DNA of 64,000 nt, taken from positions 4,121,001 to 4,185,000 of the forward strand of contig NZ_CP132336.1 of assembly GCF_030758315.1 (NCBI RefSeq). Reading direction: 5' to 3'. The stretch is from Pararhizobium sp. IMCC3301. Its GTDB lineage: Bacteria; Pseudomonadota; Alphaproteobacteria; Rhizobiales; GCA-2746425. Below, one piece after another: positions 6,891 to 61,882 of this stretch (position 1 is the first letter of the stretch; the number at the start of each line of letters is the position of its first letter). Position numbers and translations under genes: made by a program. Under the pieces are notes generated by a model. It did not search any database. It was not told where the DNA came from and saw nothing but the letters and a program-made list of their open reading frames with translations.

Positions 6891-6902
6891 GGGTCTGTCT
6901 CC

Positions 6903-16936: not shown

Positions 16937-17869
16937 ATGTCGACCTTATTGATTGCAGAGCAGGTTCTGAACGGGCTGCAACTGGGCGTCACATTGTTTT
17001 TGATGGCGGCCGGCCTGACGCTGGTATTCGGCGTCATGGGTCTGATCAATCTGGCCCACGGCTCGCTTTACATGATCGGAGCTTTTTTCTGTGCTTTCGT
17101 TTCGGTTGAAACCGGCTCGTTCTGGCTCGGTCTGATCGCTGGCATGGCAGGTGCCGCGGTTGCAGGCGCGGTTCTGGAAGTCGTCGTGATGCAGCGGCTC
17201 TACAGCCGCGACCATCTAGATCAGGTGCTGGCCACTTTCGCGCTGATCCTGATCGCCTCGGAAGGCACACGCTGGCTGTTTGGCGATGTGCCGCTGTTTC
17301 TCGATGTGCCGGCCGGTTTTTCCGGCACAGTCGAACTGGTCGGTGGATTGACCTACTCGAAATACCGGCTGTTGATTATTGGTGTTGGCCTGCTGGTTGC
17401 GGCCGCTCTGTACTGGCTGATCGCCAGAACCCGGCTCGGCATGCGTATCCGGGCCGGCGAGTCGGACCGCGAAATGATTGCAGCGCTCGGCGTCAATATC
17501 CGCCTCGTCTATACGGCGGTATTTGCCCTTGGTGCAGCGCTTGCCGGGCTGGCCGGATCGATGGTCGGCGCGCTGTCATCGGTTCAGGTCGGCATGGGTG
17601 AGCCAGTGTTGATCCTGGCTTTTGTCGTCATTGTCATCGGCGGCATCGGCTCCATCAAGGGCGCGCTGATCGGCGCTGTTCTGGTTGGTCTCGTCGACAC
17701 TTTGGGCCGCGCCTTCCTGCCGGCGCTGTTTCAACTGTTCATGGACAGTTCCCAGGCCGCGACAATCGGCTCGGCACTGGCATCAATGGCGATTTATGTG
17801 GTGATGGCGATTGTGCTGGCAATCCGCCCCCGGGGGCTGTTTCCAGCCACTGGCACAAGTCATGTCTGA
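16937..17869 (+). CDS. Branched-chain-type ABC importer permease (LivH family)
   Basis: This 310-residue inner-membrane protein has about eight hydrophobic segments and the LivH-type signature around LTLVFGVMGLINLAHGSLYMIGAF, where the permease/ATPase coupling region begins, plus VIVIGGIGSIKGALIGAVLVG near the C-terminus. It starts 76 bp after the binding-protein gene and overlaps the second permease gene by eight bases. It forms one half of the translocation pore. Confidence 0.93.
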   Translation: MSTLLIAEQVLNGLQLGVTLFLMAAGLTLVFGVMGLINLAHGSLYMIGAFFCAFVSVETGSFWLGLIAGMAGAAVAGAVLEVVVMQRLYSRDHLDQVLATFALILIASEGTRWLFGDVPLFLDVPAGFSGTVELVGGLTYSKYRLLIIGVGLLVAAALYWLIARTRLGMRIRAGESDREMIAALGVNIRLVYTAVFALGAALAGLAGSMVGALSSVQVGMGEPVLILAFVVIVIGGIGSIKGALIGAVLVGLVDTLGRAFLPALFQLFMDSSQAATIGSALASMAIYVVMAIVLAIRPRGLFPATGTSHV

Positions 17870-18851
17870 GATCTCGCGCGAAGGCTGGGTCAGCCTGGCG
17901 GTCCTGGCGCTGTTGCCGCTGGCCGCCCTCATCGCCCACCTGTCCGGCGAGAGTTATATCGTCAATCTGCTGACCCGGATGAGTGTTCTCGGTCTGGCCG
18001 GAATCGGTCTGAATTTTGCGCTGGGCTATGGCGGGATGGTCAGTTTCGGCCACGCAGCGTTTTTTGGCCTCGGGGCCTATGTCGCCGGCATTGCCGCTTT
18101 TCATTCATTCGATGAAAGCCTGTTTGCCAGCGTGCCATTTGCCATTGGCGGCACCAATCAGATGCCGCTTGTCTGGCTGATTACGTTGGTGCTGGCTGGC
18201 CTTCTGGCATGGCTGATCGGGCTGATTTCGCTGCGCACATCCGGCGTTTATTTCATCATGATCACACTGGCCTTTGCCCAGATGCTGTATTATTTCGCCA
18301 TTTCCTGGCCCGCTTATGGCGGCGAGGACGGGCTTTCGATCTATCTGCGCAACGAATTTCCCGGCATTGCCACCGACAGCGCGTTTTCGTTCTTTCTGCT
18401 GTGTTACAGCGTTCTGCTGCTGGTGCTGCTGCTGTGCTGGCGTTTCATCAATGCCCGTTTCGGCGCTGCCCTGCAGGGTGCGCGCATGAATGCGGTGCGT
18501 CTGTCCAGCATCGGTATTGCGCCGGTTCCGGTGAAACTCACCGCTTTTGTCATATCCGCCATGATTGTCGGGCTGGCCGGTGCCCTGTTTGGCGAGTTGA
18601 ACGGCTTTGTCAGCCCCACATCTCTGAGCTGGCAGATGTCGGGCGAGTTGATCATCTTTGTCATACTCGGTGGTGTCGGGCGCCTTACCGGGCCGCTGAT
18701 CGGTGCCATTGTGTTTGTCCTGCTGGAGACGTATCTGGGCGCTCTGACCGACCGCTGGCAGTTCTTTCTCGGCCTCATTCTGCTGGCGACTGTGTTGTTT
18801 GCCAGTGGCGGCATCATGGGGTTGATCGGCGGCAGGACGCGGCATGACTGA
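17862..18851 (+). CDS. Branched-chain-type ABC importer permease (LivM family)
   Basis: The ATG at 17862 inside the end of the livH-like gene gives 329 residues; an upstream in-frame extension to 17811 is rejected. It is hydrophobic throughout, with the LivM motif NFALGYGGMVSFGHAAFFGLGAY and a C-terminal LIIFVILGGVGRLTGPLIGA. It is the second pore subunit and overlaps the ATPase gene by eight bases. Confidence 0.93.
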   Translation: MSEISREGWVSLAVLALLPLAALIAHLSGESYIVNLLTRMSVLGLAGIGLNFALGYGGMVSFGHAAFFGLGAYVAGIAAFHSFDESLFASVPFAIGGTNQMPLVWLITLVLAGLLAWLIGLISLRTSGVYFIMITLAFAQMLYYFAISWPAYGGEDGLSIYLRNEFPGIATDSAFSFFLLCYSVLLLVLLLCWRFINARFGAALQGARMNAVRLSSIGIAPVPVKLTAFVISAMIVGLAGALFGELNGFVSPTSLSWQMSGELIIFVILGGVGRLTGPLIGAIVFVLLETYLGALTDRWQFFLGLILLATVLFASGGIMGLIGGRTRHD

Positions 18852-19611
18852 CATCGTTGATCCTGTTCTGTCGATCCGTCATCTGTCGAAACGCTTTGGC
18901 GCGGTGCAGGCCAGCGATGATGTCTCACTGAGCGTGCTGCCGGGAAAACTCCATGCGCTGATCGGCCCTAACGGCGCTGGAAAATCAACCCTGATCGGCC
19001 AGATTTCCGGTTTTCTCGCACCCGATGAAGGGCGCATATTCCTCAATGGCAAGGATGTCACCGATCTGTCTTCCGAGCGCCGGGTTCATCTCGGGCTGGG
19101 CCGCAGTTTTCAGGTCTCGAACCTGTTGCTGGAATGGTCGGCGCGGCGCAATGTCATGCTGGCGGTGCAGGCAAGGCAGGGCGGCAGCTTCCGCTTTTTC
19201 GCCAATGTCTGGAAGGATCAGGCGTTACGCGTGGCGGCAGAAGATGCTCTGCGCAAGGTCGGGCTGGCCGAGCGCGCCGAAATCCGCGCCATGGAACTGT
19301 CCCATGGCGAACGGCGGCAATTGGAGTTTGCCTGCGCTCTGGCGCTCAAGCCCAAGCTTCTTGTGCTGGATGAGCCGATGGCAGGACTGGGGCCGGAGGG
19401 CACAAATTCGATGACCCTGTTTCTGGACCAGCTCAAGCAGACGGTGCCGATTCTTCTCGTCGAACATGATATGGATGCGGTTTTCCGGCTGGCGGACGAG
19501 ATCTCGGTACTGGTCTATGGCCGCATCATCGCCAGCGGAACCCCGGCGGATATCCGCAATTCAAAACTGGTTCAGGAAGCCTATCTGGGGGGCGCTGGCG
19601 ATGTTGCTTGA
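18844..19611 (+). CDS. ABC importer ATP-binding protein (LivG family)
   Basis: This 255-residue protein has Walker A GPNGAGKST, a signature LSHGERRQLEFA, Walker B LLVLDEPMAGLGPEG and switch His in LLVEHDMDAVF. The LSHGE form of the signature is typical of LivG-type subunits. It is coupled by overlaps to livM-like and livF-like genes and powers the same importer from the cytoplasmic face. Confidence 0.94.
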   Translation: MTDIVDPVLSIRHLSKRFGAVQASDDVSLSVLPGKLHALIGPNGAGKSTLIGQISGFLAPDEGRIFLNGKDVTDLSSERRVHLGLGRSFQVSNLLLEWSARRNVMLAVQARQGGSFRFFANVWKDQALRVAAEDALRKVGLAERAEIRAMELSHGERRQLEFACALALKPKLLVLDEPMAGLGPEGTNSMTLFLDQLKQTVPILLVEHDMDAVFRLADEISVLVYGRIIASGTPADIRNSKLVQEAYLGGAGDVA

Positions 19612-23189: not shown

Positions 23190-23262
23190 ACCGCGTCCGC
23201 CTATAACAGAGTTTTGCTGGCGGTCTTATGGTCCGGTGGCAACAAATCCGGGCAGGGCAGGC

Positions 23263-24069
23263 ATGCAGTTTTCCACAGTAAACGGCGTCAATCTTCATTA
23301 TCAGGTGGTCGGCGCACCGGAAGGATCGCCGCTTCTGGTGTTTGCCAACTCGCTGGGTACGGATTTTCGCATCTGGCGCGATGTCATTGTCCGCTTCATC
23401 GGCGAATGCGCCATTCTGACCTATGACAAGCGCGGCCACGGCCTGTCCGATCTGGGCGAAACGCCCTATACGATCGACGATCATATCGCCGATCTGGAAG
23501 CGCTGCTGGATCATCTGAAACAGACCGGCGCGATTGTCGTCGGTCTCTCCATTGGCGGGCTGATCGCCCAGGGGCTCTATGCCAAACGCCCTGATCTGGT
23601 GCGTGCCATGGTGCTGTGCGACACCGCCCACAGGATTGGCGATGAGCAGCTCTGGAACGGGCGCATTGACGCGGTGGCGCAAGGCGGCATTGAAAGCCTG
23701 GCCGATGGCATCATGCAGCGCTGGTTCACCAGGGAATTTCCGCACGCGCATCCAAGCGCCTATCAAGGCTACCGCACCATGCTGTCGCGCCAGCCGGACG
23801 CCGGCTATGCCGCCAGCTGCGCCGCCATCCGCGATGCCGATTTCACCGAAAGCTGCGCCGCCATCAAGATCCCGACCTTGTGTGTTGTCGGCGATCAGGA
23901 CGACGCCACCCCGCCGGCACTGGTGGCCGAGCTGTCGAAACTCATTCCGGATTCGCGCTTCGAGATTATCAAGGATGCCGGACATCTGCCCTGCATCGAG
24001 CAGCCGGACATACTATCGGACATGATCAAGGCATTTTTCGACGAGGCCGGGCTCTGGCCGAAGAGTTGA
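23263..24069 (+). CDS. Alpha/beta-hydrolase, 3-oxoadipate enol-lactonase-like
   Basis: From the ATG at 23263 the protein has 268 residues (a GTG at 23236 would add nine). It has the nucleophile elbow VVGLSIGGLIAQGL (Ser), an Asp in VVGDQDDATPP and His in DAGHLPCIEQP, with NSLGTDFRIW near the oxyanion hole, all typical of PcaD. PcaD opens 3-oxoadipate enol-lactone in protocatechuate breakdown. No other pca gene is nearby, so the substrate is uncertain and another esterase activity is possible. Confidence 0.8.
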   Translation: MQFSTVNGVNLHYQVVGAPEGSPLLVFANSLGTDFRIWRDVIVRFIGECAILTYDKRGHGLSDLGETPYTIDDHIADLEALLDHLKQTGAIVVGLSIGGLIAQGLYAKRPDLVRAMVLCDTAHRIGDEQLWNGRIDAVAQGGIESLADGIMQRWFTREFPHAHPSAYQGYRTMLSRQPDAGYAASCAAIRDADFTESCAAIKIPTLCVVGDQDDATPPALVAELSKLIPDSRFEIIKDAGHLPCIEQPDILSDMIKAFFDEAGLWPKS

Positions 24070-24121
24070 ATCAAACTCTCCGGGAAACAATCTAAGTGGC
24101 TATAATTGTTCAGACTTCAAC

Positions 24122-24149
24122 AAAAAGCCCGGCTTGCACCGGGCTTTTT
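24122..24149. terminator. Bidirectional rho-independent terminator
   Basis: A perfect 11-bp stem (AAAAAGCCCGG at 24122-24132 with CCGGGCTTTTT at 24139-24149) and a six-base loop, with T-runs on both strands. It lies between the convergent enol-lactonase-like and Old Yellow Enzyme genes and can serve both. Confidence 0.93.
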
Positions 24150-24168
24150 GCATCGGATAGGTTCCGGC

Positions 24169-25326
24169 TCAGGCGGCCTTGCGCCGCTCTTCGTCGGAGA
24201 GCTTGGGATAATCCGTATAGCCCTCAGAGCCGCCGCCATAGAATGTGCTCGGCCTTACCGTGTTATAGGGCCCGTCCTGGGAAATACGCTTCGGCAGATC
24301 CGGGTTGGCCAGAAACAGCTTGCCGAACACCGCGAAATCGCATTTCTGATCTGCCACCCAGCTGGCGGCTTCTTGCGGTGAAAATCCGCCACAGACCAGC
24401 ATCGCGCCGTCAAATGCCTTTTGCATATCGGCGATGATCTGAACCGATTCATCGCGCACCTGCTCTTTGCCATCCACTTGATGGGTGGCCCGCACGATGT
24501 GCAGATAGGCAAGGCCGCGACGGGAGAGGTTGCTTGCCACCGCCGCGAACAGCTCGGCTGGGTTGTCGTCTGAAACATCATTCATGCCGCCCAGCGGCGA
24601 CAGGCGCACGCCAACCTTGTCGGCAGGCCACACACTCAGCACCGCATCGACTACTTCGCCGAGCAGCCGCATCCGGTTTTCCGTGCTGCCGCCATAGGCA
24701 TCATCGCGCTGATTGGTCGAGGATTGCAGAAACTGGTCGAGCAGATAGCCATTGGCCGCATGAATCTCGACCCCGTCAAATCCGGCATCCTTGGCGCATC
24801 GCGCAGCATGGACATAATCCTGCAGCAGGCGCGGGATCTCGCTGGTCTCAAGCGCGCGCGGCTCGACAAACGGCACCACCGGCCCGTCCGGGTGATAGTC
24901 GGCGACAAAGGCCTCACCATCCGGCCTGATCGCGCTTGGCGCAACCGGCTTGCCTTCATCCTTCTGAAACACCGGATGCGAAATGCGCCCGACATGCCAG
25001 AGCTGCAGGACAATCTTGCCGCCATTGTTGTGCACCTCATTGGTGACCAGTTTCCAGCCGACAACCTGTTCCGGCGTGTAGATGCCGGGGGTCCAGGCAT
25101 AGCCCTTGCCCTCGCGGGAAATCTGCGTGGCCTCGGTGATGATGAAACCGGCACTGGCGCGCTGGCCGTAATAGGTGGCGTTCAACGCATTGGGCACATC
25201 GCCTGGCTGTTGCGCCCGCGAGCGTGTCAGCGGTGCCATGATGATGCGGTTATCGGCTACAATGCCACCGGCCTTGCCGGTTTCGAACAATGCTGCGTGT
25301 TTAACGTTGGAATGGGTACTCTGCAC
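24169..25326 (-). CDS. NADH:flavin oxidoreductase, Old Yellow Enzyme (NemA/alkene reductase) family
   Basis: This 385-residue FMN TIM-barrel protein starts at a GTG (25326) behind a GAGGAG ribosome site. Motifs include IIMAPLTRSRA, LQLWHVGRISHP, GVEIHAANGYLLDQFLQ (substrate His and Asn region) and NRMRLLGEVVDAV. Family members reduce activated C=C bonds, nitro compounds and maleimides with NAD(P)H. The upstream minus-strand neighbour is a flavin reductase, which could supply electrons, though the 94-bp gap leaves co-transcription open. Confidence 0.93.
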   Translation of the reverse strand: MQSTHSNVKHAALFETGKAGGIVADNRIIMAPLTRSRAQQPGDVPNALNATYYGQRASAGFIITEATQISREGKGYAWTPGIYTPEQVVGWKLVTNEVHNNGGKIVLQLWHVGRISHPVFQKDEGKPVAPSAIRPDGEAFVADYHPDGPVVPFVEPRALETSEIPRLLQDYVHAARCAKDAGFDGVEIHAANGYLLDQFLQSSTNQRDDAYGGSTENRMRLLGEVVDAVLSVWPADKVGVRLSPLGGMNDVSDDNPAELFAAVASNLSRRGLAYLHIVRATHQVDGKEQVRDESVQIIADMQKAFDGAMLVCGGFSPQEAASWVADQKCDFAVFGKLFLANPDLPKRISQDGPYNTVRPSTFYGGGSEGYTDYPKLSDEERRKAA

Positions 25327-25420
25327 GGGAAAACTCCTCGTTTCGGGTTTATTTGGTCTTGGGTTGGAGAGATTTGGAAAAGACGCCGGGTCAGACAGGT
25401 TCTAAAGACCGGCCAGCGGA

Positions 25421-26086
25421 TTATTTCTCGAATACAAGGGCATCCGGATCGGCCCCCAAATCGTTCAAATCGCTTTTTACGGCTGTCTGCATCGGCCTTG
25501 GGCCGCACAGATAAATTTGCTGCGACAGATCGTCGATATGGCGTTTCAGCAGGTCCTTGTCGACATGGCCGTGTTCAAAACCGTCCTTTTCCTCATTGCT
25601 GAGGACATAGACCGTTTCCAGCCCCGCCATGGCGTCGAATTCAGCGCGGTGGATAATGTCCGCTTCGGTTTTATTGGCAAAGATCAGCCGGTGCCCGGCA
25701 ATTTTGCCCTGCGCTTCAAGGCTGCGCAAAATCGCAATGAACGGCGTTACGCCAGCACCCCCGGCAATAAATGTGCCCGGCCCCTTATATTCAATCGTGC
25801 CCCACGGCTCGCCGATCAGCAATTCATCGCCCGCCTGCAGGCTGCGCAATGCGTTGGTCACGCCATCATGATCGCTATAATGCTTGATGGTGAATTCCAG
25901 CCGGTCCCAACCGGGCAGGGAGGTAAAGGTGAAGGGCCGTTTTTCATCAGCCCAGTCCGGCTTGTTGATCGCCACTTCGGTGGCCTGACCCGGCGAAAAT
26001 TCATAGCCCTTCGGCTTTTCCATGACATAACGGTCGACATCATGGGTAACCGGTTCGATGGCAACAATTTTCACAGTCCGGGACAT
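25421..26086 (-). CDS. FAD-dependent ferredoxin/flavodoxin reductase-like oxidoreductase
   Basis: The ATG at 26086 gives 221 residues; 23 further in-frame residues upstream have no start context. The FAD-binding beta barrel (KRPFTFTSLP, the RxYS-like segment) is followed by the NAD domain with GPGTFIAGGAGVTPFIAILR and the C-terminal IYLCGPRPMQTAV. There is no Fe-S domain, so the electron acceptor is a separate protein. The divergent flavodoxin-like gene at 26357 is one candidate partner, by position only. Confidence 0.87.
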   Translation of the reverse strand: MSRTVKIVAIEPVTHDVDRYVMEKPKGYEFSPGQATEVAINKPDWADEKRPFTFTSLPGWDRLEFTIKHYSDHDGVTNALRSLQAGDELLIGEPWGTIEYKGPGTFIAGGAGVTPFIAILRSLEAQGKIAGHRLIFANKTEADIIHRAEFDAMAGLETVYVLSNEEKDGFEHGHVDKDLLKRHIDDLSQQIYLCGPRPMQTAVKSDLNDLGADPDALVFEK

Positions 26087-26356
26087 GATCTGGCCTCTTG
26101 ATTGAAATTGCATCTCACAAGGGAAACGAACGGCTCGGAGGTTCGTTCCATCCACCGCCGATCAATTCGCCGGTGCCAGCCTCGTGGTGCATCAAGTGCT
26201 GCGGCGAGCACCACGGCGTGCCATCCATCACAAACCCGTCCTATTGATCTGGAACAAGGCCATCGTGGTCGAAGACACCTAGGGTTGCGACCAAGTCTAC
26301 CTGCCGAAAAGGGGAGTGGTCTCATCGGGCCTAACGACAGGAAGGGGAGTGGTTTT
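26087..26356. other. Non-coding or decayed stretch with a 12-bp direct repeat
   Basis: No convincing gene. One plus-strand frame reads ADQFAGASLVVHQVLRRAP and continues to a stop at about 26283 without a start context; it may be decayed coding sequence of unknown origin. AAGGGGAGTGGT occurs twice, at 26309-26320 and 26342-26353; the second copy supplies the ribosome site for the next gene. Confidence 0.4.
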
Positions 26357-26899
26357 TTGAATTTTCTTGTTATTTTTGAGACAGTTGAAGGCCAAACGCG
26401 CAAGATTGCCGACTTCGCCGTGCAGCAGATAAGCGCCGCCGGCCATGGGGTGCGGCTGTTCAACACACAAGACAGTTTGGCAACTTTGTCGTTTGACGGC
26501 ATCGACGGAGTCGTGTTGGCAGCACCGGTGCATGAACGCCGCCACCCGAAGAATTTTGAAGTTTTGGTCGCTGCAAGCCTTGATGAATTGCAGGCACGCC
26601 CAACGCTGCTGCTCTCGGTCAGCCTCAAGGCGGCCTTTCCCGAATGTATCGAAGAAGCCCAGGATTACCTGACCGAAATGAAACTGCGAACAGGGTTTAC
26701 CCCCGACAGAGAGGGTCTGGTTGCCGGCGCTGTCCGCGCCGACAGCTACAGCTATTTTGAAAGCCAGATTGTGCAGATGGTGGTGTTGATCGGGCGCGAT
26801 GTCGAACTGGTAGATGGCGTGCGCGAATTCACCGATTGGGATGCCCTTGGCGCTGAGATACGGGGGTTTTTTAAGATGCGCGCGCCGGCTGACGACTGA
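26357..26899 (+). CDS. HemG-like flavodoxin-domain protein (putative protoporphyrinogen IX dehydrogenase)
   Basis: Coding starts at a TTG (26357), seven bases after AAGGGGAG, giving 180 residues that align with the HemG pattern: FLVIFETVEGQTRKIADF (FMN phosphate loop, T-x-E-GQT), VVLAAPVHERRHPKNFEVLV, LLLSVSLKAAFPE, and a C-terminal FTDWDALGAEIRGFF like HemG's VYTDWEQ region. The longer frame to 26102 has unrelated low-complexity sequence and is rejected. HemG oxidises protoporphyrinogen IX using a quinone acceptor. Alphaproteobacteria usually use HemJ, so a general flavodoxin role is also possible. Confidence 0.72.
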   Translation: MNFLVIFETVEGQTRKIADFAVQQISAAGHGVRLFNTQDSLATLSFDGIDGVVLAAPVHERRHPKNFEVLVAASLDELQARPTLLLSVSLKAAFPECIEEAQDYLTEMKLRTGFTPDREGLVAGAVRADSYSYFESQIVQMVVLIGRDVELVDGVREFTDWDALGAEIRGFFKMRAPADD

Positions 26900-27300
26900 G
26901 TGGGTGCCGTGCTGCGGGGTCAAAGGTAGGGTAGTTGCGGGCGTTCCCGGGCGCTCGTGCACGGGGCGTGGAGGATTGAAGTTGGTGCAGCCGATAAACG
27001 CTCGCTTTCGGGGGCAGAGTGATTTTCTGCTGTGCGGGGACTACGTCATCACGTAGCCCGCTCGCATTGTGTGTCAACCATCCGCAGATATGACGTTAAT
27101 TCCACTCGTACCCCGCTTGGGCTGCTCAAGGTTAAACATCTCTTATGCCGTCAGTCTGCGCTGTATCCTTTGAACAGACAGTCCAAAAATACAATTCAAA
27201 TATTGGTTTTTTTCAAATTAGTCAGATTTTTCTATGAATCTGATCCGCAGACTGCATAATGGCGAAAGATGTTGGAATAAATATTTAAAGAGCATTCGAT
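26900..27300. other. Left junction of the AT-rich island, no gene
   Basis: Base composition changes from GC-rich to AT-rich at about 27060-27180. An inverted repeat CTACGT/ACGTAG (27041-27046 and 27051-27056) may end the HemG-like transcript, but no T-run follows. No tRNA, integrase or attachment repeat was recognised. Confidence 0.5.
27222..27243. promoter_or_regulatory. Inverted repeat upstream of the island operon
   Basis: TCAGATT (27222-27228) and AATCTGA (27237-27243) form a 7-bp inverted repeat with an eight-base spacer, ending 57 bp before the first gene of the operon. It could be an operator; the bound protein is unknown. Confidence 0.35.
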
Positions 27301-28125
27301 TTGACCCTCCTGCCAAAGCCTACTCTCCTAGCCGAAGAATTTTACAACAAATTGGGCCAAGATACTTCAAATATTGGAGTTAAAAACGAGTTCTTGGAGG
27401 CTTGCGCAGGCTGCGATTGCGAAACTAAAGCAGATGAAGATTCTGGTCGAGGGTCTCGATCGGTTGAAAAGGCGTATGAAGAATTTACTTGGCGGCTTCA
27501 ACACACAGGTGATGCCATTGTGCTTCCTGATGGTGAGGTACTGGGAAGAGTCACGAATCTCCGCAGCGCGGCCACATATCTTGCAAAAGCGCTTAACCAG
27601 AGTACCAACGATGTGATCCAAATGTTTCTTTGGCTCAATAGCTTGAGCTCTCCCGTGCCGACACCAAGCCAACTTGATGTTGCAGAAGATTGGCTCACAA
27701 GTCTCAAAAATTCGATTGATCCAAATACTGACCAACCATACGTAATTTGCAGGCCGCCTCTGTGCTGGCTTTTTCGCTCTGGAGAAGGGAATTGCGATGC
27801 CAACGATGATATGGAACAGGATTTAAGTTGTTTGCCTTGTCGCCTAGGCCTACCGGATATTCTGAATGATGAAAAAGTTTATGAACTGGGCTTGGACTAT
27901 CTCTGTCTTACAGTAAAATCTGAGGACTTAGAGAACGTCAGATTCTCAAACTTTTGCCATAGTGGGTACTTAGGTGTAAGAGATATTTGGCAGCCTGGTG
28001 GTGTGACGACGCCCATTCCATATGGCCCACAGCGGTGCGTTGACAAGGGTGGTCTTCCAGAAGTTATCTGTGACCCAGTATGCTATCGGAATTTGCCTGG
28101 GCCAATTCGTGTTGTCAGGACATAG
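27301..28125 (+). CDS. Unknown cysteine-rich protein, first gene of island operon
   Basis: This frame of 274 residues opens at a TTG (27301) eight bases after AAAGAG; the frame is closed by a stop at 27286, so no longer form exists. I do not recognise a family. Thirteen cysteines are present, several in close pairs (CAGCDC near residue 35, CRPPLC, CLPC, CDPVC), which suggests metal or Fe-S binding. There is no signal peptide or membrane segment. Codon use is AT-rich, unlike the flanking chromosome. It is followed seven bases later by the second gene, so the two are probably co-transcribed. Confidence 0.72.
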   Translation: MTLLPKPTLLAEEFYNKLGQDTSNIGVKNEFLEACAGCDCETKADEDSGRGSRSVEKAYEEFTWRLQHTGDAIVLPDGEVLGRVTNLRSAATYLAKALNQSTNDVIQMFLWLNSLSSPVPTPSQLDVAEDWLTSLKNSIDPNTDQPYVICRPPLCWLFRSGEGNCDANDDMEQDLSCLPCRLGLPDILNDEKVYELGLDYLCLTVKSEDLENVRFSNFCHSGYLGVRDIWQPGGVTTPIPYGPQRCVDKGGLPEVICDPVCYRNLPGPIRVVRT

Positions 28126-28132
28126 AACCGGT

Positions 28133-28909
28133 ATGTTTAATGAAATTCTAGAGGCGCTTCGAGCATATGCTAGCGGTGAAGCGAGCAAGAGCGGCTTCAG
28201 CCGCCTTGAACTTTTGCTAGCAAGAATCACCCAGGAGACACAATTTGATTTAGATGAATTTGAAGAGATTCTCACAGAGTTGGTATCTTTGAATGATGTC
28301 CAACAGGAGGACTTCGCCCTCGGGGTAGCACTCATCGCAGAAAAAACCGGATGTCGTGGGGCTTTGTTTTGCGACGAGTTGGAACGGAAACTATTCGCTT
28401 CGGACGATCCGTTATCAGCCCGGAGCCAATTTGAACTTGCTTTACTCTATATACGATGCGGCGGCCAATTTGCACCACAGCAGCTAAAACAGCTGACAAC
28501 ATTACGCAGTGAGATACCAGAGTTATGGCTTGATTTGGCTTTTGAAGCATATCCGAGAGACGACGCTGGGCTGTTAAGTGCGATGTCTGACCTTGCTACA
28601 AATGATGATAATCCACTTCATTGGTCTAGCTTAAAATCTCGCTACCTTAAGCTTCAAAAAGCAGTGGCTAACAAAAAATTCAATGGTTTTGTTTTATCTT
28701 TTGCCAAAGTTCTGGATACTGATCAACGTCAGGCATTTTTGGAATGGATCGATGCGAAGCGTGGTTCACAACTTTCTTTGCCGCAACCGGTTATTCCGAT
28801 TCGAAGCGCCGGACATCATCTAATACAAGACACCGACATCGATTTTATCACAAATACTCCTGTGTTGGCTGAGGCAGTTGATGCGCTGCCTGAGCCGGTT
28901 GCTGCGTGA
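28133..28909 (+). CDS. Unknown, predicted helical protein, second gene of island operon
   Basis: The ATG at 28133 (MFNEILEALRAYASG) gives 258 residues; a longer frame back to 28022 overlaps the first gene by about 100 bp and is less likely. The sequence alternates charged and hydrophobic residues (LELLLARITQETQFDLDEFEEILTEL, split by short turns) and looks all-helical and soluble. No motif is recognised. Its stop codon overlaps the ATPase start (TGATG), showing tight coupling to the third gene. Confidence 0.75.
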   Translation: MFNEILEALRAYASGEASKSGFSRLELLLARITQETQFDLDEFEEILTELVSLNDVQQEDFALGVALIAEKTGCRGALFCDELERKLFASDDPLSARSQFELALLYIRCGGQFAPQQLKQLTTLRSEIPELWLDLAFEAYPRDDAGLLSAMSDLATNDDNPLHWSSLKSRYLKLQKAVANKKFNGFVLSFAKVLDTDQRQAFLEWIDAKRGSQLSLPQPVIPIRSAGHHLIQDTDIDFITNTPVLAEAVDALPEPVAA

Positions 28910-31569
28910 TGGAAAGGAAAAGAACACTCCCATACCACGAATTAGTTGAAAAGCTCTTGGCAAGTACCTTGAGATCATTTGGTGAGTTTGTATCGGTAAG
29001 CGGTCAGCAGTTTTCATTTCTTGATCCTGATCGGGTTCCAGACAAGCAGATCAATAGGCATTTCTCGTGGATTGCCGTCGCGACTCGAGAAAATCAGGTG
29101 CGACACCTTCGAGCTGGTAGCGCTAACGAAGCTATCCACGCTCTTGTAAAAGAAAACCTACGAAATGTGTCGGGTTTGGACGACAATGTCAAAAATAATC
29201 TCTTGCTGGGATTAAGCATTGAAGACCCCAACAGCTACCTTGTTCAAGAAAACGCCACACGAATCTCCCGTATAATCAAAAATGCAGTGGTCTCGACATT
29301 TAATGAGTCCACAAAGCCCAGCGAAGCGATTACGCTTCCTTCACCATACCAATTAATAGCAGATTTTCTTACAATTCCTGAACATCCCGGTAGCAGAGCA
29401 TACGCACTTCTCACTATGAGAACGGTTTTGTTCCAAAAATACCAGGCGATGCCGAATACTGTGCTTAAGCACGGCTACGATGAGTTCACTGTCCAAGATC
29501 TCGAAACATCCTACACTAGCGTACTAACGTCCATGCAGGATCGGTATCGCAGCAAGGGCCAAGACAAGCTGGACGATCTGAAGCCGAAATCGAACACTAG
29601 GCTTAGAGATAGAGTATCAGGAATTCTACGACATTATCTGGCTATGACAGGCGTTATGTATCTGCGATTCAAGAGCTTGCCAGATCATGAAGGAGGTCCT
29701 GCCGAAACTGTATTTCTTTTGTCTGAGCGAAGCAATCTCCACGATCTGGATATTCCGTTTGAGTTTACCAGACCAGCATATCTGAAAGCTCCGACAGAGT
29801 TTGGAGAAATAGTGAACGGTCTTTGGGGGGTACCGCTTCCTATACGTGGTGCCGATACCATCTTTAGAGGTGGACTAAACTTTGCATCCAGAGGTGGTTT
29901 AGTGTGTGCATTGCATGGCGGAGCAGGCTCTGGAAAAACTGCACTTGCCCTCGGTTTAGGCGCCTCTCTCTCTGGTTTTGGCATCAAGACGCTTTTCTTA
30001 ACTGCTGAGGAAGATGAGGCCGATCTGAGAAGTCGGTCCGCAAGCCTTTTGCCTTCGCAAATACGAAGCCTTCCGTTCGTACCCAACGACTCCGAAGAAT
30101 GGCTAAAAATTCGCAAGTTCGAACTTGTTTATTCGACAGAAGAGTCAAAATTGAGTGCGTTGAGTTCAGAATTTGAGAGAATTGCTGTCGCACTTAAAGA
30201 CCAAAATCATGTGAATATCGATGCACCATTTGCGGTTCCATTACCATGTTCGACAATCGTGGTCCTTGACGGCCTCCATGATATAGCTACACAAGCGCTT
30301 TTCGAACCACATAAAACGGATGCAAAAAAAGTCACGAACGAATTTCATCGTTTTATTGAGATTTGCCGTAAACTCCGGGCCCTAGTCATACTGACAACGG
30401 GTACTGATTGGAGAGCAGATACGTCACTCGATTATTTGGTTGACGTCGCGATCAGACTTTCGCACCAGACCGAATCCGATATAGGTTCAAAGCCTCACAG
30501 ATACTTGACGCTTTCGAAGGCTAGGCACCAGTTGTGTTCGCCGGGAACACACGGACTGCAAATCGCAGGCGATAAAGGTGTCCGATTTACTCCGCAAATG
30601 AATTATCAACTGGACCGTCTGTCGATTTGGAACTCAAGACTGCCATATAAAAAAGTTTTCAAAAAAGTTATGCAACTGGCTTGCCGTCAAGAGGATTTGA
30701 GGCTGGTTTCTGTCGGTTCTGGTGCAACGACAGCAAGAGGGTTGAAATTTTATCCGAACGAAAAGGCAGGAGTGGAACTTTATCAAGGTTCCATTATCTT
30801 TCTAAATGGCGAAGGTTCTGGCGGAAAAGCGGGTTTAGCGTTGAAAATCGCAACAGCACCCTCATACAATCGAGAAAAATCGGAAGGGCCCCTCTCAACA
30901 TCCGAGAAGGTTTTGGTTGTATCATTCCTCTATCCTGACGAGTATTATCGCAATATTATGGACACACTTCGTGTTGTAAGAAACAGGGAATATCCCGAGT
31001 TACCAGATGGGTTCGAACCCCGAATGGAAGTGATGCATCTCTATCCCGGGCATCTTAAGCCAGATACACTCTACAGTAAAATAGAATGGACGCTGCGGGC
31101 TTCCTTGCTTTCCGGGGATCCATTTACAACGATTATTATTGATGGAATACATAATGTTTTCCTACAGTTTCCTGAGATTGAAAAACAGACTCTGTTCTGG
31201 CCACAACTCTTCAGCTTGCTTCGAACTCGGAACTTAACCTCTATAATTACTCACACTCTGCTTTCAGTGCGCATGTCTGCGCGCGACAGTTCTGAAAGAT
31301 TTGGGACCCGCTCTGATACCTATCGCAGTGTTGACGATAGTCGATCCGACCCACTAAAGCATGCGCTGGTGCTTAAAACTGATTTTCGCATCGAGGTGGA
31401 TCCAATCGAGCTCAAGGGAGCTCAGCCAGAGATATTGACTCCTTACACATTTCGCGTTGAGACACATTCTGCGATTGGGCAACCAATGCCCGATCCCCAA
31501 AAAAACCCGCTTTACTGGAGCAGAGAGCAGCTTGTTTTCTTCTCTCAGGCGCAAAAAGCGCTACTTTAA
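28909..31569 (+). CDS. Large protein with two RecA/KaiC-like ATPase modules, third gene of island operon
   Basis: This 886-residue protein starts at the ATG of a TGATG overlap. Residues 1-300 are an unrecognised N-terminal region. Module 1 has Walker A GGAGSGKT (337-344), a KaiC-like LFLTAEEDEADLRSR strand and Walker B STIVVLDG (Asp about 454), followed by LTLSKARHQLCSPGTHGLQI, which resembles the end of a KaiC domain. Module 2 has an altered Walker A, GEGSGGKA (634-641), in which the Lys is kept but Ser/Thr is replaced by Ala, and a Walker B TTIIIDG (Asp about 745). One active and one degenerate site is likely. KaiC/RAD55-type ATPases act on DNA or in signalling; the function here is unknown. 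It ends one base before the stop codon of the convergent methyltransferase. Confidence 0.85.
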   Translation: MERKRTLPYHELVEKLLASTLRSFGEFVSVSGQQFSFLDPDRVPDKQINRHFSWIAVATRENQVRHLRAGSANEAIHALVKENLRNVSGLDDNVKNNLLLGLSIEDPNSYLVQENATRISRIIKNAVVSTFNESTKPSEAITLPSPYQLIADFLTIPEHPGSRAYALLTMRTVLFQKYQAMPNTVLKHGYDEFTVQDLETSYTSVLTSMQDRYRSKGQDKLDDLKPKSNTRLRDRVSGILRHYLAMTGVMYLRFKSLPDHEGGPAETVFLLSERSNLHDLDIPFEFTRPAYLKAPTEFGEIVNGLWGVPLPIRGADTIFRGGLNFASRGGLVCALHGGAGSGKTALALGLGASLSGFGIKTLFLTAEEDEADLRSRSASLLPSQIRSLPFVPNDSEEWLKIRKFELVYSTEESKLSALSSEFERIAVALKDQNHVNIDAPFAVPLPCSTIVVLDGLHDIATQALFEPHKTDAKKVTNEFHRFIEICRKLRALVILTTGTDWRADTSLDYLVDVAIRLSHQTESDIGSKPHRYLTLSKARHQLCSPGTHGLQIAGDKGVRFTPQMNYQLDRLSIWNSRLPYKKVFKKVMQLACRQEDLRLVSVGSGATTARGLKFYPNEKAGVELYQGSIIFLNGEGSGGKAGLALKIATAPSYNREKSEGPLSTSEKVLVVSFLYPDEYYRNIMDTLRVVRNREYPELPDGFEPRMEVMHLYPGHLKPDTLYSKIEWTLRASLLSGDPFTTIIIDGIHNVFLQFPEIEKQTLFWPQLFSLLRTRNLTSIITHTLLSVRMSARDSSERFGTRSDTYRSVDDSRSDPLKHALVLKTDFRIEVDPIELKGAQPEILTPYTFRVETHSAIGQPMPDPQKNPLYWSREQLVFFSQAQKALL

Positions 31570-31570
31570 T

Positions 31571-32722
31571 TTATGTGCGAGAAATCAGAGCCTTTTTGAG
31601 ACTCATTCCCAGAATCGTGGCGATTTTCATTGGGACCGCGTTTCCGAGTTGGCGAACCGCTCTACTCCATATCTCATGAAACGAATAGTTATCTGGAAAT
31701 GTCTGGACGCGAGCACATTCCCGTATAGTCAGATATCGAACCGACCCACAATCTTTCACCAGCATATTTTCTCCACCCGGAACACCATTTACGCCGGCTT
31801 TCAATGTTTTTGATGGCAGATCGAGATCGCTGCCTGTATGTCCTTTGTAAATTCGCGCACCAGGTTTGAACTCATGACCCTCAATGTGATTATTTTCGCC
31901 CGGCATTTCTGGATCTGGTAAATCGGAGAGTGCGTCCCGCAAAGTTACCCATGGCAAAAGCTCTGGATCCAAAAATTTGTTTTCCTGCCGTATCAGTTGA
32001 TTAGCATCCATCTCTGGAGGTTTTATTCTATGCCGGTCGTAATATTCCCCGGATAATTTATGGATATTTAGGGCTGCATGCGAGTGTGTCGGAGATGGGA
32101 AGCTCCAGCCAATCTTCAAATCATCGCGTATCCCAACTAGGAATACTCTTGATCTCCTCTGTGGAACACCAAAGTCAGCTACATTGATCAGTTGTGAAAT
32201 GACACGATAACCGCACCCCGATCCAACCGAGCTAGTCTGATAGCGTTCAAGTCGACGGTGATGTTCTTCCCAAGTTTCACCGACGAGTTCTGAGATTTCT
32301 GGAAATGAAAGACATAATCTCAGATACTCAAAATAGTTTCGAAATCTTGGACGAAGTAGACCAGGAACATTCTCAAAAAGGAATGCCTTGGGCCTTGCTT
32401 CGCGAACTGCGCGCAGAGCTTGTGGAAACATATTGCGAGGGTCTAATGCTGCTCTATGGCTTCCACCTAGTGAGAAGGGCTGGCACGGCGGGCCTCCTGA
32501 GAGTAACCACAATTGATCTTCGAGTGGACGAAAATCGTAATCGTGAATATCAACACAACTGGCAGCCATTCCATTTGAAAGTAAAAGCCCCTTTCTGATG
32601 TTGCGATTTAACGTAGCTACACAAAATTCGTCAGACTCAACTAAGTCTAAATGCTTGAAGCCCGCTGCTTCTAAACCTAGCGCCATACCTCCTACGCCAG
32701 AAAATAATTCTAAAGATTTCAT
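31571..32722 (-). CDS. C5-cytosine DNA methyltransferase (Dcm/M.HpaII-type), orphan
   Basis: This 383-residue protein carries the C5-methyltransferase motifs in order: motif I ELFSGVGGMALGLEAAGF (SAM), motif IV GGPPCQPFSLGG with catalytic Cys, motif VI FENVPG, motif VIII QRRSRVFLVG, then the variable target-recognition region, and motifs IX/X with RECARVQTFPD and QLGNAVP. It should methylate a specific cytosine; the site cannot be predicted by eye. No restriction endonuclease or Vsr gene is recognised next to it. It is AT-rich like the three-gene operon that it faces, with a single base between stop codons. Confidence 0.95.
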   Translation of the reverse strand: MKSLELFSGVGGMALGLEAAGFKHLDLVESDEFCVATLNRNIRKGLLLSNGMAASCVDIHDYDFRPLEDQLWLLSGGPPCQPFSLGGSHRAALDPRNMFPQALRAVREARPKAFLFENVPGLLRPRFRNYFEYLRLCLSFPEISELVGETWEEHHRRLERYQTSSVGSGCGYRVISQLINVADFGVPQRRSRVFLVGIRDDLKIGWSFPSPTHSHAALNIHKLSGEYYDRHRIKPPEMDANQLIRQENKFLDPELLPWVTLRDALSDLPDPEMPGENNHIEGHEFKPGARIYKGHTGSDLDLPSKTLKAGVNGVPGGENMLVKDCGSVRYLTIRECARVQTFPDNYSFHEIWSRAVRQLGNAVPMKIATILGMSLKKALISRT

Positions 32723-32903
32723 GTGCTAACCATTAGTTTCATTTGCATCGTGTTTGTGGAACGATTAACTCAATCTTGAGACTAATACACTTCAAATTGG
32801 TTTAATCAATCCGAAGATAATTAAGGTGAAAACAGGGGGCTGGATTAAAATTGCCACTTGCAAAATCGATCTTCTCCAGTGCTGTGTAGCAAGGCACCAA
32901 CCT
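32723..32903. promoter_or_regulatory. Right island edge and methyltransferase promoter region with palindrome
   Basis: This AT-rich gap lies between the methyltransferase start and the 3' end of the AttH-like gene. CTCAA-TC-TTGAG (32769-32780) is a 12-bp inverted repeat about 47 bp upstream of the start codon and could be an operator. The GC-rich chromosome resumes at about 32900. Confidence 0.4.
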
Positions 32904-34067
32904 TCACTCCCCCACCGCATACCCTGTCATCTCCAGATACCCCACACCGTCATGGCTGCCGCTGACCTGCACTGGCCCTTCCCAATACGGAATCGACGTC
33001 AGCATCCAGCTGTCGGCGTTCAGCGCTGCGGTCTCGATTTCCACCCCTTTGCCGGGCACTTCCAGCCGCCAGCGGACAGGTACGTCGCGGCCTGCAATGC
33101 GGGCGGTTTGCAGCGGGGTCATGATGATGTCGTCTGGCGTCAGGGCAGTGGCGCTGCCGTCTGGGGAAATCCAGGTGCCGGAGGTGTAATTGTCGGCCTC
33201 TTTGTCGCGCAGGCGGAACAGCATCAGTTTCTCGCCGCTGTCGAAATGCAGCGAAAACCAGTCCCAACCGGTCTGGCTGGCAGCAAGCGGCTGGCTGCTC
33301 CATTCGCGGTCAAGCCACGCCTTACCGGAAACCTTTATGTCTTTGCCATCGAGCGACACAGTGCCGGAGACAGTGAAAAACGGCTGGCTGTAATAATACG
33401 AGGCCTGATCCGCGCCAGATTGGCTCCCTTCAGATTGGCCAATATCCGACTTGCGGCTAAAGCCGGACTCGCCGTGAAAAATCAGATTTTTGTCGGTGGC
33501 GAGGGTCAGATCATAACTGAAGGCCTCATCGGATGCTGTCAGGCGCATTTCAGAAAACGCATCCGGGCCGGGTGCGCCTGCCGCGGGTGATTGTTTGGCG
33601 ATGGAGGTCAGCGACCAGTCATCGATCCAGGCGGCAAACGGCGCGGTGGTGATTCCGGCCTGGCCGGTGCCGCCACGCGCGGCAATTTCGGCGCTGAGAT
33701 GGCGGCCCTTGGCCGACAGGGCGGCATGGCCGAGCCATAATTGCTGCCGGTTCCAGCCGCTTTGCTGCGATCCGGGCGTCAGCGCCCGGCGGAACAGGGT
33801 CCACTGAATGCCATAGGGATTGCCCGCCGTATCGCTCAGATTGGCGGTGACATACCACCATTCAATGCGGAAATCCGGGTGGGCACCATGATCCTGCGGA
33901 AATGAAAAAATCTTGCCGGGCGTCACCTCTGCAAAGCCTTCGCTGTCGCCGCCAAGTCCGGCAAAGCCCTGGCCGAAGGCCTGGCCAAAGGGGGCGGCGC
34001 TCCACAGCAGCGCAAGCCACAAGGGAACGATCAGTAATGGCAGGGCGATGCGGATTTTAGCGTTCAT
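32904..34067 (-). CDS. AttH/CrtC-like secreted lipocalin-fold protein (putative carotenoid 1,2-hydratase relative)
   Basis: The ATG at 34067 gives 387 residues. A hydrophobic N-terminus (IALPLLIVPLWLALLWSAAPF) is a signal peptide or anchor. Conserved family pieces are FSFPQDHGAHPDFRIEWWYV, YYYSQPFF, KAWLDREWSSQPL and GWDWFSLHFDSGEKLMLFRLR. The family is often annotated as a predicted secreted hydrolase and is repeatedly found with an ABC ATPase and FtsX-like permease, as here. Its start overlaps the permease stop by 11 bases. The substrate is unknown; a lipid or hydrophobic ligand is inferred from the fold. Confidence 0.85.
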   Translation of the reverse strand: MNAKIRIALPLLIVPLWLALLWSAAPFGQAFGQGFAGLGGDSEGFAEVTPGKIFSFPQDHGAHPDFRIEWWYVTANLSDTAGNPYGIQWTLFRRALTPGSQQSGWNRQQLWLGHAALSAKGRHLSAEIAARGGTGQAGITTAPFAAWIDDWSLTSIAKQSPAAGAPGPDAFSEMRLTASDEAFSYDLTLATDKNLIFHGESGFSRKSDIGQSEGSQSGADQASYYYSQPFFTVSGTVSLDGKDIKVSGKAWLDREWSSQPLAASQTGWDWFSLHFDSGEKLMLFRLRDKEADNYTSGTWISPDGSATALTPDDIIMTPLQTARIAGRDVPVRWRLEVPGKGVEIETAALNADSWMLTSIPYWEGPVQVSGSHDGVGYLEMTGYAVGE

Positions 34068-36549
34068 TTGCAAACACCTTTAACAGCTCTGCGGGCGGCA
34101 TCCGCCGCAGTTTAACCGCCGGATAGGCCGAGGCGAGCAGCGCGGTGAAGACCGACAGCGCCAGCAGGCGCAGCCAGTCCAGCGGAAACAGCAGCATCGG
34201 CAGCCGCCAGCCAAAAGCTTCGACATTGATGATGGCCAGCAATATCCACGCCACCAGCAGCCCAAGCGGGATTGCCAGCAGCGAGGTCAGCAGCGCCAGC
34301 GCCACGGTTTTGGCCAGTTCGATCAGCGCAAGCTTGCGGCGCGTAATGCCCAGCGCCCATATCGGTGCCAGTTGCGGCAGCCGCGCCTGCGACAGGCCAA
34401 GCAGGCTGGTCAGCATGGCAATGCCGGCCACCGCAAGGGTCAGGGCATTCAGCGCCAGGGTGACGGCAAAAGTCCGCTCAAAGACGGATTTCGAGACGTT
34501 TTTCAACGCCTCCTGATCGATCAGCGCGCCTTCGCGGAAGTCAAAACGCTGCTCAAGCTCTGCCAGAATGCGGGCTTTTTGCTGCGGCGCAACCCTGAGG
34601 CCAAAGCGGGTCTTCTGCACCGAGGGCCACAGCTCGACCAGCCGCTCAACCGCCATCATCACCTGTCCGGCCGGGTTGCCGTAATCTGAAAAAATGCCCA
34701 GAACCTGCGTCGTCAGCGGCCCGCTCTCGCTGGCAAGCTGCACTTCATCATTCAGACCAAGGCCGAATTTCCGCGCCATCTGTTCATTGATCAGCACGCC
34801 CTTGCCAGCGGCGACATCCGGCCACACCGCCTTGGTCTGCGCCAGCAGGGGCCAATTATCGCGATAGGTCGGATGATCGCGAAAGCCGAACACCTCAACC
34901 GGCCAGTCCCTGTAGCGGGTTTCAACATTCCAGATCGGCAGAATTGCGCTGACGCCCGGCGCATCCGCCAGATAGGCGAGCACTGCGTCACTCTGCTGCG
35001 GCGTGTCGGCATTGAGATAAATCTCCGCGGTCAGGCGCTGGTCGAGCCAGGCCAGAAAGGTGGTGCGAAAACTCTGCACCATGGTGCCGACGCCGATATT
35101 GATCGACAGTGCCAGCAGCAGCGCCATCAGCGCCAGTGACAGGCCCGACATATGCTGGTTGCTGTCGGCCCAGAACCATTGCCGCAGCGGATGGTCGGCC
35201 CTGGCTTCAAAACCCGCCAGTATCGCCGCCAGCACACTGGGCAGCACAAGGGCTGCGCTCAGCAGCACCGCGCCCATCAGCACAAATCCGGCGATCAGCG
35301 AGCCGCCAAGGGCAAAGGCGGCCAGTGCCGTCAGCGCAAAGCCTGCAGCCACCGCCAATTGCCATTTGCGCTTGCGCTGATTGACCTGGCGCCAGGCAAA
35401 CGGGTGGGCATTGGCCAGGATCGGCATGCGCACCAGCTTTGCCAGGCTCGCCCCGGCAGCAAAGAAAGCCCCCAGCATGGCGATGGCCAGTCCGCTCAGC
35501 CACCAGTGCCATTGCAGCGTCAATTGGCCCGAGACTTGCGCGCCATACAGCCCTTCAAGGCTGGCCGAGACGTCGGGCAGCAGCGCTGAGGCAATCAGAT
35601 AGCCGGCAACCACGCCCAGCGCCCCGGCGAGAAACGACAGCAGCGCCAGTTCCAGCATCAGCGCCAGCGCCAGAAGCCGCGCCGGGACGCCGCAGGCGCG
35701 CAGGGTGCGCACCATATGGCGGCGGCTTTCAAACGCCAGACCCACCGCCGAATTGACAATGAACAGGCCGACCACAAAGGACAGAAAGCCGAAGGCGGTG
35801 AGGTTCAGATGAAAGCTGTCGGTCAGGCTTTCCAGCGCCGAGCTGGCGGCGGGTTGTTCCAGCCGCAACTGCCCTTCAATGAGCGGGCCAAGCGTTTTTT
35901 CGTCGGCCTTTTGCCGGTCATCCACAATCAGCCGGCTGATGCGGCCCTGCAATCCCAGCAGGCGCTGGGCAACGCCGATATCCGTCATGATGGTTCCGGG
36001 CGGCAGGCTCTCAAGCGCGGCGAGCGGCGGCAGCGCTCCGGCCCCCTCAATCGTAACGCTGCCGGACTTATCCGGGTCGAGACTGGCTAAAGTGGCAGGA
36101 TGGGCGAAGGCTTTGAAGGGCGGCGTCAGAAACGCCTCAAGATCGGCATTGCGGTTGGCGAACGCCATCAGCCACCGGTTCTGCGAGACCTCCGCATTTG
36201 GCAGCGAGACCGGGTCAATGCCGATCAGTCGGATATGGGCGCCGTTGATCCGCACCGTGCCCTCGACCACCGGCGAGACCCGCCATCCGGCGCGGCGCAG
36301 GGTGACAAACAGACCTTCGGAAACGCTGTTGCCGGCCACTGGCAGCAAAGATCGGAACTGATCGCCGCCAAGCGTGGCGGCAGCGCTTCTGTAGCTTGCC
36401 CGTGCTTCCGCATTGATCGCCTGCACGCCGCTCCACAACGCGGTCGCAACCCCCAGCCCGACAATCAGCGTGATGAAGGACAGACGGTTGCGCCGCCAGA
36501 AACTCAACAGCACGCGAAAGGTCCAGAAAAAGGTGGTGATCTGTGTCAA
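34057..36549 (-). CDS. ABC transporter permease, FtsX/MacB-like, with two FtsX domains
   Basis: This 830-residue inner-membrane protein starts at a TTG that overlaps the ATPase stop (TTGA). There is one N-terminal membrane segment, a large periplasmic region, two groups of hydrophobic helices in the middle (around 250-480), a second periplasmic region, and three C-terminal helices ending YPAVKLRRMPPAELLK, which is the FtsX-type coupling end. This is the architecture of LolC/E- or MacB-related permeases that move lipoproteins or other hydrophobic cargo. It works with the ATPase upstream and the AttH-like protein downstream. Confidence 0.9.
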   Translation of the reverse strand: MTQITTFFWTFRVLLSFWRRNRLSFITLIVGLGVATALWSGVQAINAEARASYRSAAATLGGDQFRSLLPVAGNSVSEGLFVTLRRAGWRVSPVVEGTVRINGAHIRLIGIDPVSLPNAEVSQNRWLMAFANRNADLEAFLTPPFKAFAHPATLASLDPDKSGSVTIEGAGALPPLAALESLPPGTIMTDIGVAQRLLGLQGRISRLIVDDRQKADEKTLGPLIEGQLRLEQPAASSALESLTDSFHLNLTAFGFLSFVVGLFIVNSAVGLAFESRRHMVRTLRACGVPARLLALALMLELALLSFLAGALGVVAGYLIASALLPDVSASLEGLYGAQVSGQLTLQWHWWLSGLAIAMLGAFFAAGASLAKLVRMPILANAHPFAWRQVNQRKRKWQLAVAAGFALTALAAFALGGSLIAGFVLMGAVLLSAALVLPSVLAAILAGFEARADHPLRQWFWADSNQHMSGLSLALMALLLALSINIGVGTMVQSFRTTFLAWLDQRLTAEIYLNADTPQQSDAVLAYLADAPGVSAILPIWNVETRYRDWPVEVFGFRDHPTYRDNWPLLAQTKAVWPDVAAGKGVLINEQMARKFGLGLNDEVQLASESGPLTTQVLGIFSDYGNPAGQVMMAVERLVELWPSVQKTRFGLRVAPQQKARILAELEQRFDFREGALIDQEALKNVSKSVFERTFAVTLALNALTLAVAGIAMLTSLLGLSQARLPQLAPIWALGITRRKLALIELAKTVALALLTSLLAIPLGLLVAWILLAIINVEAFGWRLPMLLFPLDWLRLLALSVFTALLASAYPAVKLRRMPPAELLKVFANER

Positions 36550-61880: not shown

Positions 61881-61882
61881 GT

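Follow-up and report, generated by a model that had tools for sequence, protein, structure and literature searches.

Organization of the locus

The stretch analysed here, which we call the window, comprises 64,000 nucleotides of Pararhizobium sp. IMCC3301 (contig NZ_CP132336.1, positions 4,121,001–4,185,000 of the forward strand). Between its positions 27301 and 32722 lies a tight operon of three genes on the + strand, g1, g2 and g3, followed by a convergent gene, g4, that encodes a C5-cytosine DNA methyltransferase (MTase). We refer to the three operon genes as the triad and to all four genes as the cassette. The features are as follows.

27301–28125, + strand: g1, 274 amino acids, TTG start
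28133–28909, + strand: g2, 258 amino acids from the ATG at 28133 (the listed open reading frame starts earlier, at 28022)
28906–31569, + strand: g3, 887 amino acids, GTG at 28906 and ATG at 28909, overlapping the stop of g2
31571–32722, − strand: g4, C5-cytosine DNA MTase, 383 amino acids, convergent

The spacing between g1 and g2 is 7 bp, and a single base (31570) separates the stops of g3 and g4. An earlier note, made from the letters of the window alone, had described three closely packed co-directional genes that end one base from a convergent C5 MTase, and the coordinates, including the gap and the stop/start overlap, agree with that description. It had also placed these genes on an AT-rich island in GC-rich flanks. 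This is equally correct: the guanine plus cytosine (GC) content of 27301–32722 is 46.1%, compared with a mean of 56.6% (standard deviation 1.9, minimum 53.6%) for 239 mutually overlapping segments of the same size, taken in 200 bp steps within these 64 kb and excluding the island. The GC content of the cassette is likewise lower than that of its surroundings in all six loci described below.

Pairwise comparison of the window locus with two of these loci, L001 and L002, gives saturated synonymous sites (proportion of synonymous differences pS 0.82–0.90) with a proportion of nonsynonymous differences, pN, of only 0.19–0.42 in 12 out of 12 comparisons. The genes of the cassette thus look real, and their proteins are under purifying selection.

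The triad and its methyltransferase in six loci

Related loci were found by homology to g3 only, and the presence of g1, g2 or an MTase was no search condition. A scan of GTDB contigs with g3 yielded at least two relatives among ten pattern-matching stretches, this being a lower bound as the scan requires exact short peptides of the window g3. They are L001, from an uncultured Rhodobacteraceae, and L002, from Tropicibacter sp. R16_0, both with the layout of the window (triad plus convergent C5 MTase). Profile searches added L008 (genome G692), L029 (genome G802) and L031 (an IMG/VR record). The window genome, G692 and G802 represent three families of one order. In alignments, the rows of the window, L001, L002 and L008 are called type A and those of L029 and L031 type B.

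The triad is contiguous and has the same gene order in each of the six loci, and a DNA MTase gene stands beside g3 every time. The only further gene found between g1 and the MTase is a Vsr gene in L008, and replication or recombination genes are absent from this interval in all six. The co-occurrence of the four genes that the earlier note had thought worth looking for is therefore real (six of six loci, with the MTase adjacent), and its label of an 'orphan' MTase has to be given up, the enzyme being linked to the triad throughout. Sequence comparison shows the g1–g2–g3 triad to be an evolutionary unit.

L008 also carries an Mrr_cat nuclease gene (5804–6904), divergently oriented upstream of g1, that matches the PADLOC PDC-S02 models. 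A nuclease gene adjacent to the triad is seen in this locus only, with none in the same position elsewhere, and the Mrr_cat gene could either belong to that variant or form a system of its own. Separately, a few kilobases upstream of the L029 cassette, the gene at 3893–4954 matches GIY-YIG below threshold (E = 0.012).

g3, a KaiC-like ATPase with a degenerate second domain

The g3 protein consists of an N-terminal region of about 300 amino acids without an assigned family, a KaiC-like ATPase domain (D1) and a domain with a degenerate P-loop (D2). The window protein matches Pfam KaiC (PF06745, E = 5.1e-11), and this family is above its cut-off in all four g3 proteins scanned out of the six. Identity to the window copy is 72% for L001, 70% for L002, 43% for L008, 28% for L031 and 30% for L029. 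The L031 and L029 proteins are 40% identical in the N-terminal part, 52% in D1 and 51% in D2. The P-loops are positioned as follows.

29917–29940, + strand: Walker A of D1, g3 residues 338–345, GxxGxGKT
30808–30831, + strand: degenerate Walker A of D2, residues 635–642

In an alignment of the six proteins the GxxGxGKT motif of D1 is invariant together with Glu368, Glu369, Asp455, Gly456 and His458. The two glutamates align with the EE pair of KaiC, which has a catalytic role there, and the Walker B-type aspartate sits in a DGxH motif. The D1 profile matches the solved KaiC structure 8db3 with E = 4e-10, summed over repeats, and RecA, RadA and KaiC chains are among its matches. When the g3 profile is compared with solved structures, no match at E = 0.01 is obtained. 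In a PHROGs scan, the P-loop region of g3 matches DnaB-family phage proteins.

In D2 the P-loop reads GxGSxGKA in all six proteins, with an alanine replacing the serine or threonine, and SFLY is present where the EE segment is expected by distance from the P-loop. The longest invariant stretch of D2 is HNVFLQFP. Similarity of D2 to solved DnaB and KaiC chains is weak at the profile level (best E = 0.08). The 'dual KaiC-like ATPase' of the earlier note consequently stands for D1, while for D2 what is found is this degenerate P-loop and weak similarity. Given the intact motifs of D1 and the altered P-loop and SFLY segment of D2, we infer that the first ATPase domain is active and the second is not.

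g1 and g2, two partners without a family

No match to g1 is found in Pfam, PADLOC, NCBIfam or PHROGs, and for g2 no family in these four libraries is above threshold. The best sub-threshold matches of g2 are DeaD_dimer in Pfam (E = 0.16) and Erm55 in NCBIfam (E = 0.0091, 15.1 of 525 bits). For g3, PADLOC likewise gives no match to the window protein. This is in agreement with the statement in the earlier note that none of the three matches a defence family it recognised (BREX, DISARM, Zorya, Druantia, Gabija). Compared with solved structures, the g1 profile finds no match at E = 5, and the sole match of the g2 profile is a ribonucleotide reductase with E = 0.38.

Both proteins are nevertheless homologous across the two groups. 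When the four type A rows are aligned against the two type B rows, hhalign gives a probability of 99.6 (E = 2.2e-24) for g1 and 97.2 (E = 3.8e-11) for g2. For L008 alone against the three close copies the values are 93.7 (E = 1.8e-7) for g1 and 73.5 (E = 3e-5) for g2, where gene position supplies part of the argument. Identity to the window copy is 58% (L001) and 57% (L002) for g1, and 45% (L001) and 49% (L002) for g2. In L001 and L002, too, g1 could start at the TTG chosen for the window gene. A three-row g1 profile matches in one of 397 genomes of the order, this profile being so narrow that g1 genes of divergent sequence may be missed.

Residues of g1 that are invariant among the six homologues are Met1, Pro7, Leu10, Gly70, Leu75, Glu79, Leu81, Gly82, Ala128, Trp156, Phe158, Arg159, Leu178, Arg181–Gly183, Pro185, Trp230, Gly234, Thr236, Pro238, Gly251 and Glu254. 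Besides calling g2 helical, the earlier note had described g1 as Cys-rich. The richness in cysteine holds for the window, L001 and L002 (13, 11 and 12 cysteines), but not in the distant L031, L008 and L029 proteins (six, two and four), and on these low counts the idea of g1 as a metalloprotein was dropped.

The methyltransferases beside the triad

The window g4 matches DNA_methylase (PF00145, E = 1.8e-54) and the PADLOC model MTase_II (E = 4.3e-113). The PCQ, ENV and QRR motifs are present. Among solved structures, a four-row C5 MTase profile matches M.HaeIII best (E = 1.6e-39). The MTases of L001 and L002 are 61% and 59% identical to g4. A C5 enzyme is found at the window, L001, L002 and L008, as seen from the alignment and, for the window and L008, from Pfam. 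In L029 and L031 the neighbour is instead an N6_N4_Mtase (PF01555, E = 4e-11 and 8.5e-12, respectively) with an SPPY motif, which may point to N4-cytosine methylation, and these two are 41% identical to each other. The best PADLOC matches are type II restriction–modification (R-M) models for all three MTases scanned (window, L029 and L031). Thus, the modification enzyme can change class while the triad stays.

In L008 a gene for a Vsr mismatch endonuclease (11200–11772; PF03852, E = 2e-28) is placed between g3 and the MTase. The MTase gene is convergent with the triad in the window, L001, L002 and L031 and co-directional in L008 and L029, so that orientation differs within both groups. Since orientation varies in this way, the linkage of MTase and triad outlasts rearrangement.

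Insertion sites, mobility and rarity

In the L031 record, an exact 25-nucleotide copy of a tRNA-Pro 3′ end is present at 3150–3174 and again at 50984–51008, 47.8 kb apart. The cassette starts about 0.5 kb inside one of these copies and is followed by a phage lysozyme gene. The duplicated tRNA end together with the lysozyme gene indicates that the L031 cassette is carried by a prophage. Recombinase genes are also found within about 6 kb of the cassette in L002 (a tyrosine integrase and a resolvase, in a neighbourhood with a tRNA-Thr), in L029 (a resolvase and an integrase just under the Pfam cut-off) and in L008 (a resolvase and a weak integrase match below the cut-off). L001 has two tRNA-Arg genes and the remnant of an integrase arm domain nearby, and its contig ends 265 bp beyond the MTase. 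Around the window cassette no mobility gene is seen among the six flanking proteins scanned. Comparison of the loci thus shows that the cassette is mobile.

The window cassette occupies a variable site.

24070–32903, no strand assigned: variable site, flanked by genes for an alpha/beta hydrolase (23236–24069) and a CrtC/lipocalin protein (32904–34073)

In addition to the cassette, this site holds three flavoenzyme/flavodoxin genes upstream of it. In one congener (G001) the flanking genes are only about 0.55 kb apart, as measured between tblastn ends, and the site is nearly empty. In other congeners the same site holds different cargo, each time among further genes: a CHAT and HARE-HTH gene pair in G002, a two-component system in G003, and genes for MgtE and mechanosensitive channels in G004. 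This varied cargo identifies the site as a general insertion spot that is not reserved for defence genes. A g3 match is absent from all four congeners, the single match among five genomes of the genus being the window genome itself. Vertical conservation among relatives, which would have spoken against the proposal in the earlier note, is hence not seen.

The G002 pair (L024, 4946–7584) is a two-gene operon whose products match HARE-HTH (PF05066) just above the cut-off and CHAT (PF12770; PADLOC chat, E = 2.1e-9). It is a separate candidate defence pair.

The cassette is rare. A search with the single g3 protein gives one match in 385 genomes of the class, and a six-row profile one in 190. Three of 397 genomes match in the order. 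A three-row profile gives three in 398 in the phylum; one of these, in G731, extends over 77 positions with 16.7 bits and was dropped as a generic KaiC. One of 12 genomes matches in the family of G802. Within the genus of G692, seven of 195 genomes match, but six of these matches are partial (59–130 positions, below 20 bits) and were discarded as generic KaiC as well, leaving G692 alone. Thresholds differ and samples overlap between these counts. Searches of plasmid, phage and viral-contig collections give no full-length relative beyond the L031 record itself. The L008 g3 matches 29 plasmid records that were not counted; the best 20 of the 29 show 25–29% identity over 27–28% of the query and are taken as generic KaiC. 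Such a patchy and mobile distribution at variable sites is typical of defence genes, but not specific to them.

Elsewhere in the window, a thiamine pyrophosphate (TPP) riboswitch is present at 61780–61892 on the + strand (Rfam RF00059, 66 bits), and the strong AT skew of positions 17001–19000 (−0.325 and −0.346 per kb) is larger than any other tabulated for the window.

Proposed function

We favour the view that the cassette is a mobile, MTase-linked and probably anti-phage system with the triad as its effector, to which we assign a probability of roughly 0.6. We infer that g1, g2 and g3 act jointly, with g1 and g2 as dedicated partners of g3 in a complex in which D1 would hydrolyse ATP and D2 would be a structural or regulatory pseudo-ATPase. 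The triad would recognize or process DNA without the host methylation mark, or respond to another cue of infection, and would then block the invader as an ATP-driven effector, while the neighbouring MTase would mark as self those copies of the target that belong to the host. As an MTase of either chemistry is kept in all six loci, this arrangement suggests that it is the methyl mark itself rather than its chemistry that matters and that protects self from the triad.

Several observations weigh against this view. PADLOC lists none of g1–g3, and no nuclease family is recognized in the g1–g3 proteins scanned, L008 alone having an adjacent nuclease gene. The AlphaFold2 model of g1 (three-sequence alignment) is unusable, with a predicted local distance difference test (pLDDT) score of 43, and so is the AlphaFold model of g3 (pLDDT 31). 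The five proteins scanned from the G003 and G004 cargo belong to signalling, lipid-kinase and ion-transport functions and not to defence. The Vsr of L008 fits the repair of deaminated 5-methylcytosine and may not be an effector. Finally, the two MTase classes track the two triad groups, a grouping judged from identities, and the exchange of enzymes may have been a single event.

Other explanations account for part of the same evidence. The cassette might maintain or repair the DNA of mobile elements, with g3 acting on DNA ends or replication intermediates in the manner of RAD55, RadA or KaiC, g1 and g2 serving as loaders and the MTase providing counter-defence against host restriction. The similarity of g3 to KaiC and RecA, whose matches include RecA, RadA and KaiC chains as well as phage proteins of the DnaB family, agrees with this, as does the mobile context, and a solitary MTase fits anti-restriction. 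We nevertheless consider it unlikely, as the window cassette is intact although its scanned flanks hold no mobility gene, as the stretch from g1 to the MTase holds no replication or recombination gene in any of the loci (only Vsr, in L008), and as an MTase stays by the triad in both classes, which protection of an element alone does not require. Quite improbable, in our judgement, is a selfish addiction module resembling type II R-M, where loss of the MTase would let the triad kill the cell and so stabilize the element, with immunity as a by-product. The constant adjacency of the MTase, carriage on the L031 prophage and the type II models matched by the MTases argue for such a module, which overlaps with our preferred reading; the lack of a toxin or nuclease family in the proteins scanned counts against it, and a three-gene ATPase effector is, to our knowledge, unusual for addiction modules.

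KaiC-like ATPases are known signalling proteins, and one locus lies in a prophage, so a triad that reads the MTase pattern in order to control chromosomal or prophage genes is conceivable. Such epigenetic silencing or regulation is hard to reconcile with the patchy distribution, with neighbours that differ per locus and with two unrelated MTase chemistries next to the same triad, and is very unlikely. A chance neighbourhood, in which a solitary MTase and an operon with no relation to it were acquired separately, could be argued from the four loci in which the convergent MTase forms its own transcription unit. This is largely refuted by an MTase that adjoins g3 in every locus, in two classes and both orientations, across three families of one order and a Tropicibacter, and has almost no probability left.

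Under the anti-phage reading, one may go further and propose a new class of immunity in which two family-less partners and an ATPase of the KaiC type, one half of it a pseudo-ATPase, read a missing DNA methyl mark, C5 or exocyclic-amino alike, and stop phage without a known nuclease, helicase or toxin fold. We put this forward tentatively, and rather doubt it. The gene set is without description in the titles and abstract openings of the open-licence literature searched, where absence is no proof. For two of the three core proteins, g1 and g2, four curated libraries give no family above threshold, yet in distant alphaproteobacteria and in a prophage both have stayed together with a DNA MTase and an ATPase of the KaiC type. 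Were the anti-phage reading true, KaiC-type ATPases would be an addition to the effectors of immunity linked to MTases, and the replacement in nature of a C5 MTase by an amino-MTase would offer a direct handle on the discrimination between self and non-self.

Comparison with known systems

The cassette resembles type II R-M in its adjacent and often convergent MTase of the C5 or amino class, in its mobile and patchy occurrence and, in L008, in the Vsr gene beside the C5 enzyme. It differs in having no recognizable restriction endonuclease in the triad, the window g1–g3 matching no nuclease family in Pfam, PADLOC or NCBIfam that could be a cognate enzyme, and in its three conserved partner genes, which include the 887-amino-acid ATPase. 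An endonuclease of unknown fold may still be among them.

BREX and DISARM combine a modification enzyme with one or more large ATPases and accessory proteins, and BREX contains PglZ and BrxC. Neither PglZ nor BrxC is matched by the window g1–g3 in PADLOC. ARMADA likewise joins a modification enzyme, large ATPase(s) and accessory proteins, and a YprA-like superfamily 2 (SF2) helicase characterizes DISARM, Druantia and ARMADA (PMC12458937). No such helicase is matched in Pfam or PADLOC by the window g1–g3. The cassette, too, joins a modification enzyme, a large ATPase and accessory proteins. It is set apart from BREX, DISARM and ARMADA by an ATPase of the KaiC/RecA type instead of an SF2 helicase or BrxC, by a small C5 or SPPY enzyme that is not PglX-like, and by g1 and g2, which are without a PADLOC counterpart.

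The methylation-associated defence system (MADS), with its gene set mad1–mad8, shares the presence of MTases, and the g3 P-loop is weakly similar to mad8 in two of the four g3 proteins scanned (L031, 3608–6133, E = 1.8e-4; L008, 8579–11260, E = 0.0084). The g3 proteins of the window and L029 do not match mad8, none of the mad models is matched by those g1 and g2 proteins that were scanned, and the MADS gene set is not found. The L029 MTase matches mad2 with E = 6.6e-6, ranked under 20 type II models. g4 also scores against the DruM C5 MTase model of Druantia (E = 3.3e-80), but no other Druantia protein is matched among g1–g3, and filing the cassette under Druantia was rejected as the type II MTase model scores higher (E = 4.3e-113).

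The relatives of g3 itself are KaiC, RadA and RAD55. It departs from them in its 887 amino acids, its N-terminal region without a family, its degenerate second P-loop and its family-less operon partners, while D1 has in common with them the P-loop, the EE pair aligned with that of KaiC and the Walker B-type aspartate.

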